Assembly (NCBI GenBank): GCA_947491315.1 | Contig: CANLII010000008.1 | Span: 1 to 64,000, forward strand | Source of the DNA: Ignavibacteria bacterium | GTDB taxonomy: Bacteria; Bacteroidota; Ignavibacteria; Kapaibacteriales; UBA961 | DNA: 64,000 nucleotides | Reading direction: 5' to 3' | Shown here: positions 43,108-51,400 of the stretch, in pieces | Layout: each line of letters opens with the position of its first letter | How positions within the stretch are numbered: position 1 is the stretch's first letter | The notes under the pieces: generated by a model | Told to the model about the DNA's origin: nothing | Database searches by the model: none | What the model saw: the letters and a program-made list of their open reading frames with translations, nothing else | Made by a program: the position numbers and the translations under genes

Positions 43108-43156
43108 AATGCAATATATACTCAAATGAATGTTCACATTTTTACCTGATAGATTT

Positions 43157-45697
43157 ATGAAAATTTTCCTTATCCTCCTTTGTTCCATATTCTTCATGGA
43201 ATTCAGCATCGATGCCACAGCGCAATCATTCGATGCAAAAACCTTCATAAGTAATGGTAATGACTCGAAAATGCCCGAAATGCTCAAGCAATCAGTACAT
43301 ACATTCTCATTGGATAAAACTGTAGCGGGAAAGATATTCGGTTCATTTTCGAAAGATCTTCAATTACAAAATTTTCCAATCGGCATGAATGCGAATGGTA
43401 CTGTTGACCTATCTCTTTCACAATCTGTGATAGATGCCAATACCATCATCATGATAGGTAATAAGAGGGTACCTGTTCCATCAATTACGACATATAATGG
43501 TCATATCAAAGGTGAGAATGGATCAACCGTATTGATTACCTATGCAGATGGGGAAATGTATGGTTGGATTTCAAGAGCAAATGGTACAACTGTTTCATTT
43601 GCACCTGAAGACATAAAAGCAGATATCAAGAAAGAACATGTGATGTATAATGAAAACTCATTACACTCCGCTTTAAACATGCCTGCAAAGTCTTGTGGTA
43701 CAGAAGAGTTTTCACATACAGGAATCAAAACTTGGGAAGTTGAAGCACAGCTCAAGAAAGGCGAAAAAGTTCTTGATAATCGCATGCTTGAACTGCAAAT
43801 AATTTTAGAATCTACCACAACATTTTTCACCAAGATTGCAACAAGAAATGAAACCAGAGCAACAAACCTCATGGTTTCAATGGCAAATGCGGTGAATACA
43901 TTGTATAGAAGAGAGTTAAATCTCAATATAGTTGTTCCATTGATCCAAATCTGGACTGACGATAATCCTGATCCATATCAAAATGATGGTGCGAATACTA
44001 TCGCCTTGCTCAATGAAATACAAAATAGATGGAGTAAAATTACCAATAGAACTCGTGACATTGTACATTGTTTCGATGCTATGGGTAATTCACAAGCAGG
44101 CGCAGGAGTTGTTGCAGGTATTGCAAATGGAATCGGTGCTTTATGCAATGGTTCACTTTCAAATGCATATTCAGTGACAGGTGTATCTGCATTTGCAAAT
44201 CTTCCTTTGATCACATATATGAAAGATGTGTCAACAATGGCTCATGAGCTAGGACATAATATGGGTTCATATCATACTCATAATTGTGGTGAATGGAAAC
44301 CAGCACTCGATTCATGTCTTTCCAGTGGTCCAAGCTATGTCGGTAAGATTTCTTATTCTTCTGAAACATGTAATACCGGAGCACCAAAACCAATACCCGG
44401 TTCAATCATGAGTTATTGTGATTTAACCAATTCCACAGGATCTGTACCATTCACATTTCTTCCAAGAGTGTATGAATTCCTCAGAGCAAGACTTGAAAAC
44501 AGTAAATGTATCACAGAAGCACAGAATGCTCAGATCAAAATGATTGGACCTTGGGGCAATCAGACTTTAATTTCTGGAAGAACAACATTGGTTGAATGGA
44601 CTTCAGTAAAAGTCAATAGTGTGAAAGTACAATTTTCAACCGATGGTGGAGGAAATTGGAGTGAAATCGCAACAGGAATTCCAGCTGCATCTTCAAGCAT
44701 GATCAATGGTCAAGGCGCATATCAATGGACCATTCCAAATATTGCCACAACTGCAGGAAGACTGCGTGTGGTTGACATGGCAAATCCTGATATCAATGAT
44801 ACTTCTTGGGTAAATTTCAGAATCGTTGCACCAAGTTTGAATCTTTCCACGAATCTTGATGGCAAAGCATTTGGACAAACTGAAAACACTCCGGTGCAAT
44901 GGGCAAAAACAAATGTTGACACTGTACTCGTGATGTTTTCCAAAGACAATGCTTCAACATGGGAGACTTTAGCCAAACAGACCGGATCTACCTACACATT
45001 CGCAATTCCGAATATTGATGCTGAAAAATGCTGGATTCGCATAGCTGATGCAAGTAATATGTCTCTTGTATCGCAGACAGGACCATTCTCCATTGGCAAA
45101 GAAGAATTAACATTGATCAATCCCAAAGGTGGAGAGACACTTTGCGCCAATAAGCGTTTTGTAATCGCATGGACATATAAAAACCTGGCTAATTCCAAGT
45201 TACTTGTCCAATATTCAAATGCAGGCGGAGCATGGCTGAATATTTCGGCGGCAAATGGCGTTGATCCATGGTCAAGCGTATTTGGCTTTACACCACCTTC
45301 AATCAAAAGCGATTCTATTGTCATTAGAGTCATCAGCAGAACAGATAGTACCGTAATTGCAAGCTCAGGATATATTTCAGTATCAAATGAAGCAGGATGT
45401 GTAGCAACTTCGCTCGAAGAAGACCCAACCATGCCAAGCTTGCTTGTAGCGCCGAATCCAATTACAGGAAATACATTCACCGTCACAATCAATGCACCTA
45501 TTGCATGTGGCAATGGAACTCTTTCACTTACCTCATTGAGTGGATCAACCGTTCATATTTTCGGAAATACATATTCATTTGTTCAAGGAATGCATGCAAT
45601 GGAACTCAGTTTACCGAGCATAAGTTCAGGTAGATACTTCTTGACATTGCAATGTAATGGAAGAAGATTAAGCATTCCTGTATCAATTGAGAACTAA
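43157..45697 (+). CDS. Secreted metzincin (reprolysin-like) protease with T9SS sorting domain
   Basis: A signal peptide ('IFLILLCSIFFMEFSIDATAQ') and propeptide-like region precede a metzincin domain with 'HELGHNMGSYH' at residue 363 (HExxHxxGxxH, zinc ligands plus catalytic Glu) and the Met-turn 'SIMSYC'. Three Ig/Fn3-like strands blocks follow, marked by 'VQFSTDGGGNW', 'VMFSKDNASTWETLA' and 'VQYSNAGGAWLN'. The end 'VAPNPITGNTFTV...SSGRYFLTLQCNGRR' is a T9SS type A sorting domain. Likely cell-surface or released. The ATG at 43157 is chosen because it begins the signal peptide. Confidence 0.92.
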   Translation: MKIFLILLCSIFFMEFSIDATAQSFDAKTFISNGNDSKMPEMLKQSVHTFSLDKTVAGKIFGSFSKDLQLQNFPIGMNANGTVDLSLSQSVIDANTIIMIGNKRVPVPSITTYNGHIKGENGSTVLITYADGEMYGWISRANGTTVSFAPEDIKADIKKEHVMYNENSLHSALNMPAKSCGTEEFSHTGIKTWEVEAQLKKGEKVLDNRMLELQIILESTTTFFTKIATRNETRATNLMVSMANAVNTLYRRELNLNIVVPLIQIWTDDNPDPYQNDGANTIALLNEIQNRWSKITNRTRDIVHCFDAMGNSQAGAGVVAGIANGIGALCNGSLSNAYSVTGVSAFANLPLITYMKDVSTMAHELGHNMGSYHTHNCGEWKPALDSCLSSGPSYVGKISYSSETCNTGAPKPIPGSIMSYCDLTNSTGSVPFTFLPRVYEFLRARLENSKCITEAQNAQIKMIGPWGNQTLISGRTTLVEWTSVKVNSVKVQFSTDGGGNWSEIATGIPAASSSMINGQGAYQWTIPNIATTAGRLRVVDMANPDINDTSWVNFRIVAPSLNLSTNLDGKAFGQTENTPVQWAKTNVDTVLVMFSKDNASTWETLAKQTGSTYTFAIPNIDAEKCWIRIADASNMSLVSQTGPFSIGKEELTLINPKGGETLCANKRFVIAWTYKNLANSKLLVQYSNAGGAWLNISAANGVDPWSSVFGFTPPSIKSDSIVIRVISRTDSTVIASSGYISVSNEAGCVATSLEEDPTMPSLLVAPNPITGNTFTVTINAPIACGNGTLSLTSLSGSTVHIFGNTYSFVQGMHAMELSLPSISSGRYFLTLQCNGRRLSIPVSIEN

Positions 45698-45698
45698 T

Positions 45699-48206
45699 AT
45701 GGATTATCGATCTATTCTCCACATGTTCATCTGTTTATTGTTAGTCATCCCCATGCTTGGTAAGACTAATGATGCAACCAAAGGGATGAAGATACTACCA
45801 CCATTGTCTTTATTGTCTGCTGAGCATCAAACTCATGCCAAGACATATTCCATTAATAAAACATGGTCGGTGGAAGCATTCACGCAATCGGGCAATTCAT
45901 TTCGAATTGATCAATTTCCAATTTCATTGACTGAAAATGGAAGTATTCAATTTGAACTTTCTCCATCTGTAATCGATGGTTCGACAGAAATCATGGTTGG
46001 TTTCAAACGCATTCCCGCTCCGGATGTGAGAACATATACAGGAACCATTATTGGGGAACCGGGGTCTAATGTCGTGATGTCTTTTGCAAATGGAATTCTT
46101 CGTGGATGGATAGAAAGAGTCGATGGAAGTAGAGTCAGTATAGCGCCTTCTGAAGGTTCTACGGAAATACATCTACTCTATGATGCGGAAATTGTAGCTG
46201 ATCTCAGAAAAGATGCAGGTTCATGCATGACCGATGAATCGTCAATCACCATTCCCACTCCTGAAGATTTGTATAAAACTCTTGGTAAGGTTGAGTCCGT
46301 TAAAGGCACTAATCTTCTCGAATTGCAGGTGATTGTTGAAGCTACTTCATCCTTTTTCAATGGTCCCGGAAGAAAAGATTCCATTCGCACTGCTGAATTC
46401 ATGATTGGATTAATGAATGGCGTGAATACGATTTACAGAAAAGAATTGAATGTCAATATCATCATACCAAGACTTCAAATATGGACAGCCACAACTCAAG
46501 ATCCATATGTAAGCAATGGGAATGCACCGGCACTTTTGGATGAAGTTCAAAATCGTTGGGGAAAGCTAACAACAATCAAACGCGATATTGTTCATTGTCT
46601 TGATGCCGTTCCAACCACTGGTGGTTTATTCGTTCTTGGGATTGCTAATGGAATTGGGAATATATGCTCCGGAAGTATTTCGGATGCATATTCTGTTTCA
46701 GGTATTTTCAAAAATGGCTTGGCAAAAATCGAAGATTATATGGGTGATATCGTGACGATTGCCCATGAACTCGGACATAATATAGGTTCATATCACACGC
46801 ATAATTGTCAATTCTGGCCACCAAGAGGACTTGACTCTTGTATGACAAGCGGAAGCGCATATCGTTCACGCTCAAACTATTCTCAGGAAGCTTGCTTTAA
46901 AAATTTACCAATGGTAAATCCAGGCTCCATCATGAGTTATTGTCATTTGACAAATCCCTCACGATCAGTTGCTTTTACATTTCTTCCAAGAGTTGCAACC
47001 TATCTCCGAAACTATATGGAGAGTCGTTCTTGCATTGAACCTGCAACCCAGCCAATTGTGAGAATGGTCTATCCATGGGGACAACAGTCCTTTGTTGTTG
47101 GCACTCAAACATCCATTGACTGGACCTCACATAGAGTCACTAATGTCAATATCGAATTCAGCACAGACGGTGGAACAAATTGGCGCACAATATTTGCTTC
47201 AAGACCTGCTGTTACCGAAGCAAATGGTACAGGTTCTTTTCTATGGACCATTCCTGACAATCCAACCACAAAAGGAAGAATCCGCATAGTAGATGTATCC
47301 AACGCTCAAATTCGTGATACTTCTTGGGCTGATTTCACCATTGCAAAAGCAACACTCACACTTACCAGTGACTTTCGATCAAAGAAATTTGGGATGAAAG
47401 AGAGAATTTCGCTCAATTGGACAAAAGCTCTTGTGGACCGCGTCCGCATTGAATTCTCATCCAATAATGGTTCAATATGGTCACTCATTCGCGATTCAGT
47501 GTCAAATACGACCTTCACCGTTGATATCCCTGATGTCGAATCTGAGAATTGTTTGTTCAGAATAGTGGATGTGGCAAATGGGAAACTCATCAGTCAATCA
47601 GCATTATTTGAGATTGGAAAAGAGCAATTGGCATTATTGCAACCGGCAAATAATGATACGCTTTGTTTGGGTAAGCCATATACTATTACTTGGTCGCAAA
47701 CATTTATGTCCAATAGCAAGATATTCATAGAATATAGAAATGTTGGGCAAACAACTTGGAAAAGAGTTTCCCTCTTGGGTCATGATGCAGATTCTGCCAA
47801 ATTCGCTTGGACACTCAATAATGTTACAGCAGGTACATATCAATTCAGAACTGTTTATAGACAAGATACATCGCTATCAACGATACCTATCAATCTTTTC
47901 ATTAGCAGTGAAGGTTCTTGTGCCACGGCTGCAAGCATCAGTGATCTAGATTATTCTGCATTCACTTTGTTCCCAAATCCATCCAGTGAATTCGTAAAGA
48001 TTATACCAACTAAGGAAATGTGTGTCAATCCAAAAATGATCATCTCTGACATTGCAGGAAGCTCCATGGTTGAAATGATGGATCTAACACTGCATAGCGC
48101 GAGTGGTACCGATATTTCTGTAAAACACTTGACTTCAGGCACATATTATATCACGCTCATTTGTAATGATCGCAGATATACGCAAAGTTTCACCATTCTA
48201 CGATAA
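45699..48206 (+). CDS. Secreted metzincin protease, tandem paralogue, with T9SS sorting domain
   Basis: Same architecture as the gene immediately upstream: signal peptide ('MFICLLLVIPMLGKTN'), propeptide, 'HELGHNIGSYH' at residue 356, Met-turn 'SIMSYC', three 'FSTDGGTNW'-type beta modules, and C-terminal 'LFPNPSSEFVKI...SGTYYITLICNDRRYTQ'. Clear similarity along the full length points to a tandem duplication that has since diverged. The track start at 45687 is a TTG within the previous gene; ATG 45699 follows the preceding stop by one base. 835 residues. Confidence 0.92.
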   Translation: MDYRSILHMFICLLLVIPMLGKTNDATKGMKILPPLSLLSAEHQTHAKTYSINKTWSVEAFTQSGNSFRIDQFPISLTENGSIQFELSPSVIDGSTEIMVGFKRIPAPDVRTYTGTIIGEPGSNVVMSFANGILRGWIERVDGSRVSIAPSEGSTEIHLLYDAEIVADLRKDAGSCMTDESSITIPTPEDLYKTLGKVESVKGTNLLELQVIVEATSSFFNGPGRKDSIRTAEFMIGLMNGVNTIYRKELNVNIIIPRLQIWTATTQDPYVSNGNAPALLDEVQNRWGKLTTIKRDIVHCLDAVPTTGGLFVLGIANGIGNICSGSISDAYSVSGIFKNGLAKIEDYMGDIVTIAHELGHNIGSYHTHNCQFWPPRGLDSCMTSGSAYRSRSNYSQEACFKNLPMVNPGSIMSYCHLTNPSRSVAFTFLPRVATYLRNYMESRSCIEPATQPIVRMVYPWGQQSFVVGTQTSIDWTSHRVTNVNIEFSTDGGTNWRTIFASRPAVTEANGTGSFLWTIPDNPTTKGRIRIVDVSNAQIRDTSWADFTIAKATLTLTSDFRSKKFGMKERISLNWTKALVDRVRIEFSSNNGSIWSLIRDSVSNTTFTVDIPDVESENCLFRIVDVANGKLISQSALFEIGKEQLALLQPANNDTLCLGKPYTITWSQTFMSNSKIFIEYRNVGQTTWKRVSLLGHDADSAKFAWTLNNVTAGTYQFRTVYRQDTSLSTIPINLFISSEGSCATAASISDLDYSAFTLFPNPSSEFVKIIPTKEMCVNPKMIISDIAGSSMVEMMDLTLHSASGTDISVKHLTSGTYYITLICNDRRYTQSFTILR

Positions 48207-48225: not shown

Positions 48226-49122
48226 ATGTTACAATCACTGATTGCCGCATCATTACCATATATCCCCAAAGCAATAGTTAAGTCAGTTGCATCTCGTTAC
48301 ATTGCCGGCTCAACATTACGGGAAGCTGTTCAAACAGTCCAAGCACTTGAAAAGAAAGGTGCTTCATCCACAATTGATGTGCTCGGTGAATTCGTTACCA
48401 CCAAAGAGCGATCACTTCACGAATATGAAAGTTCAAAAGCTGTTTTATCTGCTATCAATCAATATAAATTGCCTACATATTTATCGGTGAAGCCAACATC
48501 ACTTGGATTGGGTATAGACCCTGAATTTGCCTATGAGAATATCAGTTCTTTAGTGAATATGGCTAAAGAATTTGGCGCATTTGTTCGTATGGACATGGAG
48601 AATACACCCTATACCACACAAACTATTGACATGTACCGAAGATTGCGTCATGAAGGATTTGATAATTGTGGAATAGTGATTCAAGCCTATTTACAGAGAA
48701 GCGAATCAGATATTCTATCTCTTCTCGATCTAGATCCCAATATCAGATTATGCAAGGGGATTTATAGAGAGAATCCGGAAATAGCATTTACAAATCCTGA
48801 TGATATTCGGAATAATTATAAAAAGCTTCTTCGGCTCCTGTTAAAGCATGCTTCAAAGACAGGGATAGCAACGCATGATGATATACTTATCAATGATGCA
48901 ATGAATGTGATTGAAACAGAAAATGTCAACAAAGAAACATATGAATTTCAAATGTTGCTCGGAGTTCGCGAGGAGAGAAGAGATGCAATTTTACGCCTTG
49001 GACATCACATGAGAATTTATGTACCATTTGGGGAAGATTGGTATGGCTATTCGACAAGAAGACTCAAAGAAAACCCACAAGTGGCGGGTTATGTATTCAA
49101 AGCAATGTTTAAGAAAGGATGA
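48226..49122 (+). CDS. Proline dehydrogenase (monofunctional PRODH)
   Basis: Oxidises proline to pyrroline-5-carboxylate with FAD. The TIM-barrel segments 'YLSVKPTSLGLGID', 'VRMDMENTPYTTQTIDMYRRL', 'GIVIQAYLQRSESD', 'IRLCKGIYRE', 'TGIATHD', 'EFQMLLGVREERR' and 'RIYVPFGEDWYGYSTRRLKENP' follow in the order of PRODH; the final Tyr/Arg-Arg segment binds proline. 298 residues. No P5C dehydrogenase (PutA C-terminal half) is fused or adjacent. It ends one base before the next gene's ATG. Confidence 0.93.
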   Translation: MLQSLIAASLPYIPKAIVKSVASRYIAGSTLREAVQTVQALEKKGASSTIDVLGEFVTTKERSLHEYESSKAVLSAINQYKLPTYLSVKPTSLGLGIDPEFAYENISSLVNMAKEFGAFVRMDMENTPYTTQTIDMYRRLRHEGFDNCGIVIQAYLQRSESDILSLLDLDPNIRLCKGIYRENPEIAFTNPDDIRNNYKKLLRLLLKHASKTGIATHDDILINDAMNVIETENVNKETYEFQMLLGVREERRDAILRLGHHMRIYVPFGEDWYGYSTRRLKENPQVAGYVFKAMFKKG

Positions 49123-49123
49123 T

Positions 49124-50014
49124 ATGCGAAAACTATTCATCCCATTCATCATTACTATCATCATACTCCTCCAACCATTATTTGGTTGTACAAAACCTCC
49201 GGAAGATCTTCGTCCACTCTCCATTGCCACTTTCAATATAGCTTGGCTTGGTGATGGTGAAGGGAAGGATATGATACCAAGAACGAAAGAACAGTATACA
49301 TTGATTGCCGATATCATTAATGAAACATCTGCAGATATCATTGCCTTGCAAGAAATTGAAAACATGCAAGCACTGAATCAATTGCTTGTGCATTTACCCG
49401 ATTATACTGCCGTACTCGGTTCCAGTGGCAAGTCACAAAATGTTGGATTCATGTATAAAAAATCACTCAATGTAGAGTCCATTGGTGAATATATCCCGAT
49501 AGCCATTGATCCAAATCGTAATAGACCCGGATATGTGGTTAAAGTCAAAAAAGGGAATTTTGATTGTTTTTTGATGTCTGTTCATTTTAAATCTACATCA
49601 AGATTTGACTCAACCGATGAGATGCGTATAGAGTCACGCCGGGTGAGAAGAGAACAGTCCCAAAAAGCCATGGCATGGATAGATTCAATGAAATCCAATA
49701 ATGTAGATCAAGACATTTACATAGTTGGAGATTTGAATGATTTCCCCAAAAGAGAAAAAGAACCAACTCTTCAAGCATTGACAGCTTCATCAGAAGTCGT
49801 TTTTCTCACTGCAGAGATGAAAAGTTGCAAATTTCAGAACTTCTATGTCATAGATCATATCATAGCCTCCAAGTCTGCACAAAAGCGCTTCATAACCAGT
49901 AGCGAACGCATTATTGATATTTTTTCCATGCATTCCAAAGAAGTGGCCGAGAAAATATCCGATCATTGCCCAATTGTCATGCAATTTGATGTCACACAAC
50001 CAGATAATGATTAA
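49124..50014 (+). CDS. Endonuclease/exonuclease/phosphatase-family lipoprotein
   Basis: A lipobox signal ('FIITIIILLQPLFGCTKP') precedes an EEP-fold hydrolase: 'LSIATFNIAWLGDG' (Asn), 'IIALQEIEN' (Glu metal ligand), 'LMSVHFKSTSR' (catalytic His), 'YIVGDLNDFP' (Asp/Asn) and 'SDHCPIVMQF' (final Asp-His). All catalytic residues appear intact. Substrate could be nucleic acid, phospholipid or a phosphosugar. The track ORF begins at 49019 inside proline dehydrogenase; ATG 49124 starts the signal peptide. 296 residues. Confidence 0.85.
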   Translation: MRKLFIPFIITIIILLQPLFGCTKPPEDLRPLSIATFNIAWLGDGEGKDMIPRTKEQYTLIADIINETSADIIALQEIENMQALNQLLVHLPDYTAVLGSSGKSQNVGFMYKKSLNVESIGEYIPIAIDPNRNRPGYVVKVKKGNFDCFLMSVHFKSTSRFDSTDEMRIESRRVRREQSQKAMAWIDSMKSNNVDQDIYIVGDLNDFPKREKEPTLQALTASSEVVFLTAEMKSCKFQNFYVIDHIIASKSAQKRFITSSERIIDIFSMHSKEVAEKISDHCPIVMQFDVTQPDND

Positions 50015-50017
50015 TCC

Positions 50018-51400
50018 ATGAAACAATTTATCATTACAGTGATTGTTTTTCTTGCAGGACAATCCATCCTAGAAGCACAACCCTATCAGCAATTTCTTGA
50101 TTGGCAAATAGCACAATCAAAAAGATGCATGAATGCAGTACTCAAAAAAGATTTTCAGAAAGCATATGACCTCTTTACTCCGGAAATGAAGAAAGAATTT
50201 TCAAGAGATACATTTGCTATTTTTTGGAATCTTTTTGAAAAAAAAGCGGGAAAGCCATATAAAGTGTTTAATGTTAGAACAGATATCGATAATGAAGATT
50301 CTACTCTTATAACTATCATACATTCCATCCGATGTTCAAATGGAAATTGGGATATTCGAATGTCATTCAAAGGTTCCCATTTGATTGATGGATTCTATGT
50401 TGATACATTTAAACCTCATTATGATAGAAGAGCATATACTGTACCCGACTATGCATATACCGATAGTATAAAAGTCAGAACTCTTACGATTGGCAAAGGA
50501 ACAGATTGGGAAACCGAAGGTATTCTCACATTACCACTAAAAAGTGGAAAATATCCCATAATTATCATTATCCATGGTAGCGGTCCATTGGACGAAGATG
50601 GAACATATGTTGCTAATAAACCATATGCTGACCTTGCTTGGGGATTGGCTTCCAAAGGAATAGGTGTGCTTCGCTTCACGAAAAGAACCAGGAAGTACTA
50701 TTCAGCAATCAAAGATAAAGGACTAGAAATAACTCCTGATTTAGAAAGTACAGAAGATGCAATTGCCGCCTTCAATGCCGTGAAGACTTTCCGAGAGGCA
50801 GATTCAGAGAATATTTTTCTATTGGGTCATGGAACCGGTGGAATGATCATGCCGAGAGCATTGCAAGCAATCAAAAATCTAAAAGGAATGATTTTGTTGG
50901 GTGCTCCTGCAAGACCACTTCCTGATGTACTGATAGAGCAATTGGAATATGTGTTAACCTTGGACACGCTCATTGAAAAGAAAGATTCTGGAGCAAAACT
51001 AGAGAAGTTAAGAAAACAGTATAAGACTGTGATTTCACCTAAGTTAAACAAGGATACACCATCTGAGTATCTTTTACTCGAGACTCCTGCTTCATATTGG
51101 CTTTCTCTCAGAAACTATGATCAAGTTCAAACATTGAAAAAATATAAGATACCAACTCTGATTTTACATGGTGAAAGAGACTTTCAAACCACAATGAAAG
51201 ACTTTTCTTTGTGGCAAAAGGGACTTGTTGGAAAAAATGGTATTCAGGGTAGCAAAGCAATCAGCTATCCTCTATTGAATTATTTGTTTTTGGAAGGAGT
51301 TGGAAAAGCAAGTCCTTCTGAATATACAATCTTTGATCATATCCCTGAAGAAGTCATGAATGATATTTCCTCATGGATCATGTCAATAATGAAACAATAG
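50018..51400 (+). CDS. Secreted alpha/beta-hydrolase-fold protein lacking catalytic Ser and His (likely pseudoenzyme)
   Basis: A signal peptide ('FIITVIVFLAGQSILEAQ') and a DUF3887-like helical domain ('AVLKKDFQKAYDLFTPEMKKEF') precede an alpha/beta hydrolase domain: 'IIIIHGSGPLDEDGTY' (oxyanion region), 'LLGHGTGGMIMPRALQ' and 'LHGERDFQTT'. The nucleophile elbow, normally GHSxGG, here has Gly272 in place of Ser. Asp388 is kept, but the His expected in 'NHLF' near the C-terminus is Tyr422 ('LLNYLFLEG'). With two of three triad residues lost, usual hydrolysis is unlikely; it may bind a ligand. It follows the EEP lipoprotein gene by three bases. Confidence 0.85.
   Translation: MKQFIITVIVFLAGQSILEAQPYQQFLDWQIAQSKRCMNAVLKKDFQKAYDLFTPEMKKEFSRDTFAIFWNLFEKKAGKPYKVFNVRTDIDNEDSTLITIIHSIRCSNGNWDIRMSFKGSHLIDGFYVDTFKPHYDRRAYTVPDYAYTDSIKVRTLTIGKGTDWETEGILTLPLKSGKYPIIIIIHGSGPLDEDGTYVANKPYADLAWGLASKGIGVLRFTKRTRKYYSAIKDKGLEITPDLESTEDAIAAFNAVKTFREADSENIFLLGHGTGGMIMPRALQAIKNLKGMILLGAPARPLPDVLIEQLEYVLTLDTLIEKKDSGAKLEKLRKQYKTVISPKLNKDTPSEYLLLETPASYWLSLRNYDQVQTLKKYKIPTLILHGERDFQTTMKDFSLWQKGLVGKNGIQGSKAISYPLLNYLFLEGVGKASPSEYTIFDHIPEEVMNDISSWIMSIMKQ

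Follow-up and report, generated by a model that had tools for sequence, protein, structure and literature searches.

An exported EstD-like alpha/beta-hydrolase protein lacking the catalytic serine and histidine is kept under selection in a genus of Kapaibacteria and is probably a non-hydrolytic relative of known esterases

The best-known alpha/beta hydrolases without catalysis are animal proteins such as the neuroligins. No bacterial non-catalytic alpha/beta hydrolases were found in the literature searched. In neuroligin, neurotactin, glutactin and thyroglobulin, alpha/beta-hydrolase folds without a functional triad serve as adhesion or chaperone domains (PMC5943944). EstD of Thermotoga maritima, the type of lipolytic family X, carries a GHSLG elbow, is inhibited by PMSF and has esterase activity on C5-C8 esters (PMC6622161); its family is labelled NF041096 in NCBIfam, bacterial lipolytic family X, and Bacterial_EstLip_FamX in ESTHER. 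Fusions of NTF2-like domains to C-terminal alpha/beta hydrolases have also been described, and for the NTF2-like DUF3887 domains a role in binding ligands without catalysis has been proposed (PMC3924330).

The window, by which we mean the whole stretch of 64,000 nucleotides analysed, belongs to an uncultured member of the Kapaibacteria and encodes on its forward strand (50018..51400) an EstD-like DUF3887 and alpha/beta-hydrolase protein of 460 residues, whose triad positions read Gly-Asp-Tyr. The reading frame is intact over 460 codons from the ATG at 50018 to the stop ending at 51400, in line with an earlier note on this DNA. The protein matches the NCBIfam model for esterase EstD (NF041096) over its full length (E 3.2e-89, residues 1-456 against model positions 1-419 of 421), and its score of 299.9 bits is under the equivalog cut-off of 600; intact homologues from this order and class, at 358-444 bits, fall short of it as well. 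The Pfam Hydrolase_4 family is matched with E 1.2e-6, and the DUF3887 (NTF2-like) domain at residues 43-124 (50144..50389) is a sub-threshold match to PF13026 (E 1.3e-4, 23 bits, with a gathering cut-off of 31.8); both domains are matched by all 13 aligned homologues at E <= 0.01, the best DUF3887 value being 1.8e-16. Direct reading of the sequence gives a probable signal peptide, MKQFIITVIVFLAGQSILEAQ, at residues 1-21 (50018..50080), and the hydrophobic N-terminal stretch of the orthologues likewise ends in AQ, so that a putative periplasmic location can be proposed. The description of the product in the earlier note as a secreted DUF3887/alpha-beta hydrolase is thus supported by the Hydrolase_4, DUF3887 and EstD matches and by the signal-peptide-like N-terminus. 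The architecture is the one described for DUF3887 proteins, an N-terminal NTF2-like domain with a C-terminal alpha/beta hydrolase; there, however, the NTF2-like domain is the proposed non-catalytic binder, whereas here the hydrolase domain appears to be catalysis-deficient as well. Cys37 and Cys106 occur together in the genus of the window protein and in the sister genus g4, genus g2 has Cys37 only, and Cys37 is absent from most other intact homologues; the two residues possibly form a disulphide within the DUF3887 domain.

The nucleophile elbow of the window protein reads GHGTGG (residues 270-275) and the C-terminal box NYLF (421-424). Homologue alignments place Gly272 (codon GGA, 50831..50833) in the column where relatives have the nucleophile Ser, and Tyr422 (codon TAT, 51281..51283) in that of the catalytic His; EstD itself has GHSLG where the window protein has GHGTG (270-274), and the window protein has Tyr for His in the NHLF-type box. 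When a profile built from 13 homologues was aligned to solved hydrolases, among them 9h0z and 9pjb, Gly272 again fell on the nucleophile Ser of their GxSxG elbow, and since the homologue alignments and this profile alignment agree, both losses are soundly mapped. The third triad residue, Asp388 (codon GAC, 51179..51181), and the oxyanion-side HGSGP motif (residues 186-190, 50573..50587) are retained. These are the residues, with the same numbering, that the earlier note had listed as lost and kept. An alignment of about 80 homologues covering the family, order and class contains 60 with Ser-Asp-His at columns 272/388/422 and a normal elbow; this intact set was chosen by presence of the triad, and its complete agreement at these columns is by construction. 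Additional homologues from a phylum-wide sample are likewise Ser-Asp-His, except for the triad-less lineages in the family and in the families f8, f11 and f26. An intact triad elsewhere in the window protein, which would have argued against the losses, could not be placed by alignment. Regarding the fold, the profile alignments reach solved hydrolases and the core is conserved, while an AlphaFold model built from an alignment of two sequences (the window protein and its orthologue L032) had a mean pLDDT of 30.7 and was discarded as unusable. Without Ser and His the usual acyl-enzyme mechanism should no longer be open to the protein, which is presumably inactive as an esterase. It fits the description of an alpha/beta-hydrolase pseudoenzyme, being homologous to active hydrolases and having lost triad residues, and resembles the cholinesterase-like domains of neuroligin, neurotactin and thyroglobulin in that a presumed fold of this kind is kept without a functional triad (PMC5943944). 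Those domains differ in belonging to the eukaryotic cholinesterase family and in having known protein-protein roles.

Six further genomes of the genus were compared, and five of them carry the gene, with protein identities of 61-88%, the highest being that of L032 (record 'Candidatus Kapaibacterium sp. isolate JZJ.24'). Gly272, Asp388 and Tyr422 are found in all six gene-carrying genomes, the window genome included, and none of the five other carriers keeps Ser and His. Five of these genomes encode Gly272 by GGA and the remaining one by GGT, which indicates that the glycine has been maintained through synonymous change; the agreement among the six genomes, together with this difference in codon, argues against an assembly error or chance. 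Immediately upstream lie genes for proline dehydrogenase (48226..49122, forward strand; Pro_dh 7.4e-31) and for a lipoprotein of EEP fold with intact nuclease/phosphatase motifs (49124..50014, forward strand; Exo_endo_phos 3e-9, ExeM/NucH 5.6e-12), the latter ending 3 bases ahead of the window gene's ATG. This order is identical in all carriers of the genus, and the downstream genes also correspond, up to the ends of the stretches compared. An active partner paralogue in the same genome was considered and rejected, since the only other relative detected with the window protein as query (G000:C12, an intact hydrolase) is distant, at 31% identity, and does not make up a close pseudoenzyme-enzyme pair.

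The estimated dN/dS of the window gene is 0.053-0.067 (Nei-Gojobori, three pairs within the genus), compared with 0.10-0.14 for the EEP gene and 0.08-0.11 for proline dehydrogenase in the same pairs, and 0.11-0.17 for an HI0933-like flavoprotein; among the neighbours only an MgtE-like transporter has values as low. Pairs of intact homologues gave 0.02-0.22 and triad-less pairs elsewhere in the family 0.039-0.053, all to be taken as approximate because several pairs are near synonymous saturation. Values as low as those of intact homologues indicate that the gene is not freshly decaying. All 60 intact homologues agree at twenty positions, three of which follow from how the set was chosen, and the genus keeps 18, Asp388 included; it differs only at Ser272 and His422, and retains 17/17 of the invariant positions outside the triad. 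Invariance within the genus is far more frequent at positions conserved in the intact homologues than elsewhere (50/54 versus 168/374, p = 3.6e-12). Judged from these sequence comparisons, the pattern is that of an enzyme from which the chemistry has been removed and the shell kept. The loss of the triad is thus fixed in a lineage of six species under purifying selection (dN/dS about 0.05-0.07).

Evidence on the ancestral state comes from the sister genus g4, where the genes of G009 and G011 are syntenic with the window gene, following proline dehydrogenase and EEP. The orthologue in G009 (L008/L084) shares the upstream genes and the domains with the window protein, to which it is 41% identical, but has an intact Ser-Asp-His triad (GHSLGA and NHIF) in place of Gly-Asp-Tyr, which suggests that the window lineage descends from an active enzyme. 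Besides the genus of the window gene, three further lineages of the family lack Ser, and several more do so outside the family. In G011 (L009) only Ser has changed, to Gly, and His is kept; in G013 (L012), also of genus g4, both Ser and Asp are replaced by Gly and His is kept; the triad positions are Gly/Asp/Asn in genus g2 and Gly/Ser/Gln in genus g3. G011 and G013 are sister species of the intact G009 and offer a stepwise series for studying the loss of catalysis. Beyond the family, Ser is replaced by Asn or Thr in members of f8 and by Gly in representatives of f11 and f26. The EstD-like homologues of genus g11 in f8 (L021, L024, L022, L023, L025, L026 and L105), with an APNLAA, APTLAA or APSLAA elbow instead of GHSLGG and hence Asn, Thr or Ser at the nucleophile position, are a probable further set of non-catalytic members. 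In f26 the elbow is GHGTGG or GHGIGG with an intact NHLF box (L117, L164 and L165), apparently a separate loss.

A tree computed after removal of the trait columns shows the family as a single clade (support 100/100) and groups G009 with G011 and G013 (100/99), and a constraint placing all triad-less members of the family together without G009 was rejected (AU p = 0.00065). On the 80-row tree parsimony requires at least seven changes in the Ser column and three in the His column. One loss in the family's common ancestor, with Ser regained in G009, costs the same by parsimony, but separate losses are more likely, since G009 retains 56 of the 57 conserved positions and these are eroded in the triad-less lineages of the family (40-45 of 57). 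In the Ser-less sister lineages parts of HGSGP as well as Gln308 and Gln390 are altered; retention of the pocket is therefore a feature of the genus of the window gene and not of all triad-less relatives.

Taken together, the results make the window protein a relative of a known esterase lineage that is under selection and is probably non-hydrolytic. We consider it somewhat probable that it is an exported pseudo-esterase whose former cleft binds a ligand but does not turn it over, the protein serving as a binder, carrier or sensor. The ancestor would have been an active EstD-type esterase of family X, with DUF3887 and alpha/beta-hydrolase domains; by the time of the common ancestor of the genus Ser would have been replaced by Gly272 and the catalytic His by Tyr422, with loss of ester hydrolysis, while strong purifying selection has held HGSGP, Asp388 and all other positions invariant in the intact homologues, and with them probably the fold. 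The old substrate cleft, perhaps together with the cavity of the NTF2-like DUF3887 domain, may then be where a small periplasmic ligand, acyl or otherwise, is bound. Binding or sensing in the periplasm is favoured by the proposal that DUF3887 domains are binders (PMC3924330) and by the binding roles of triad-less animal hydrolases (PMC5943944). Of the two parts of the suggestion made in the earlier note, a selected non-hydrolytic role appears well supported by the low dN/dS and the fixation throughout the genus, and ligand binding or sensing is suggested by the retained pocket and the NTF2-like domain, although the retained pocket-side residues may serve folding and not binding.

The main rival is a non-catalytic scaffold or adhesion role exerted through the outer surface, as in the neuroligins, with the old active site as a relic needed for folding. 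Such use of triad-less alpha/beta-hydrolase folds is known, in adhesion or as chaperone domains (PMC5943944), and the recurrent loss of the triad with varied replacements (G/Y, G/N, G/Q, N/N) would suit a function that never needed catalysis; nevertheless we regard this role as unlikely, as few positions of the protein are conserved as strictly in the genus as those on the pocket side, beyond obvious need for folding, and the proposed scaffold has no known partner protein. Still more doubtful is an enzyme of altered chemistry, acting through His271, Thr273, Asp388, Tyr422 or water without the Ser-His pair. It would account for the conservation of Asp388, His271 and the oxyanion-side loop and for the fixation of Thr273 and Tyr422 in the genus, but the other triad-less lineages have no common replacement residue, sister lineages have lost Asp388 as well (Gly in L012, Ser in L013), which fits loss and not a new shared chemistry, and in the conserved columns of the hydrolase domain Thr273 and Tyr422 are the only new nucleophile-like residues that are invariant in the genus and peculiar to it. 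That the gene is decaying or recently inactivated and without function, as might be thought from the missing catalytic residues and from its absence from two of the 14 genomes of the family (G003 and G012), is already contradicted and hardly credible, for the frame is intact in six species with dN/dS about 0.05, Gly and Tyr are fixed over divergences at which synonymous sites are saturated, and the two genomes are 86% and 93% complete.

Returning to the pseudo-esterase reading, it is tempting, with chances that we put a little short of even, to extend it to Kapaibacteria-type bacteria in general, in which EstD-type esterases would repeatedly and independently have become non-hydrolytic proteins under selection as strong as that on the enzyme. 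If so, EstD-type proteins would have had an ancestral second function, such as ligand sensing or partner binding, which persisted without catalysis. The genus maintains a triad-less esterase fold for which the intact, syntenic G009 orthologue is a natural control and the parallel losses are replicates, and the role of an esterase fold after loss of hydrolysis is thereby directly testable. The triad-less genes are also a warning for annotation, as they are likely to be misnamed esterases by homology.

The earlier note had also connected the protein with the EEP lipoprotein encoded before it. The adjacency was confirmed, but a functional pairing, considered because of a shared absence from two genomes, was rejected: the EEP gene is an order-wide gene, found in 119 of the 123 genomes of the order and the window gene in 56, so that EEP is present also where the window gene is absent or distant, and in genus g2 (G007) the two lie about 100 kb apart. 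The adjacency therefore says little about function. The two family genomes that lack both EEP and the window gene are G003 and G012, and this joint absence could be due to incomplete assemblies. Further upstream in the window, two large reprolysin-like (M12B) secreted metalloproteases are encoded in tandem by slightly overlapping ORFs (43130-45697 and 45687-48206); the second has a Por secretion tail, and at least this one is kept upstream of the window gene across the genus.
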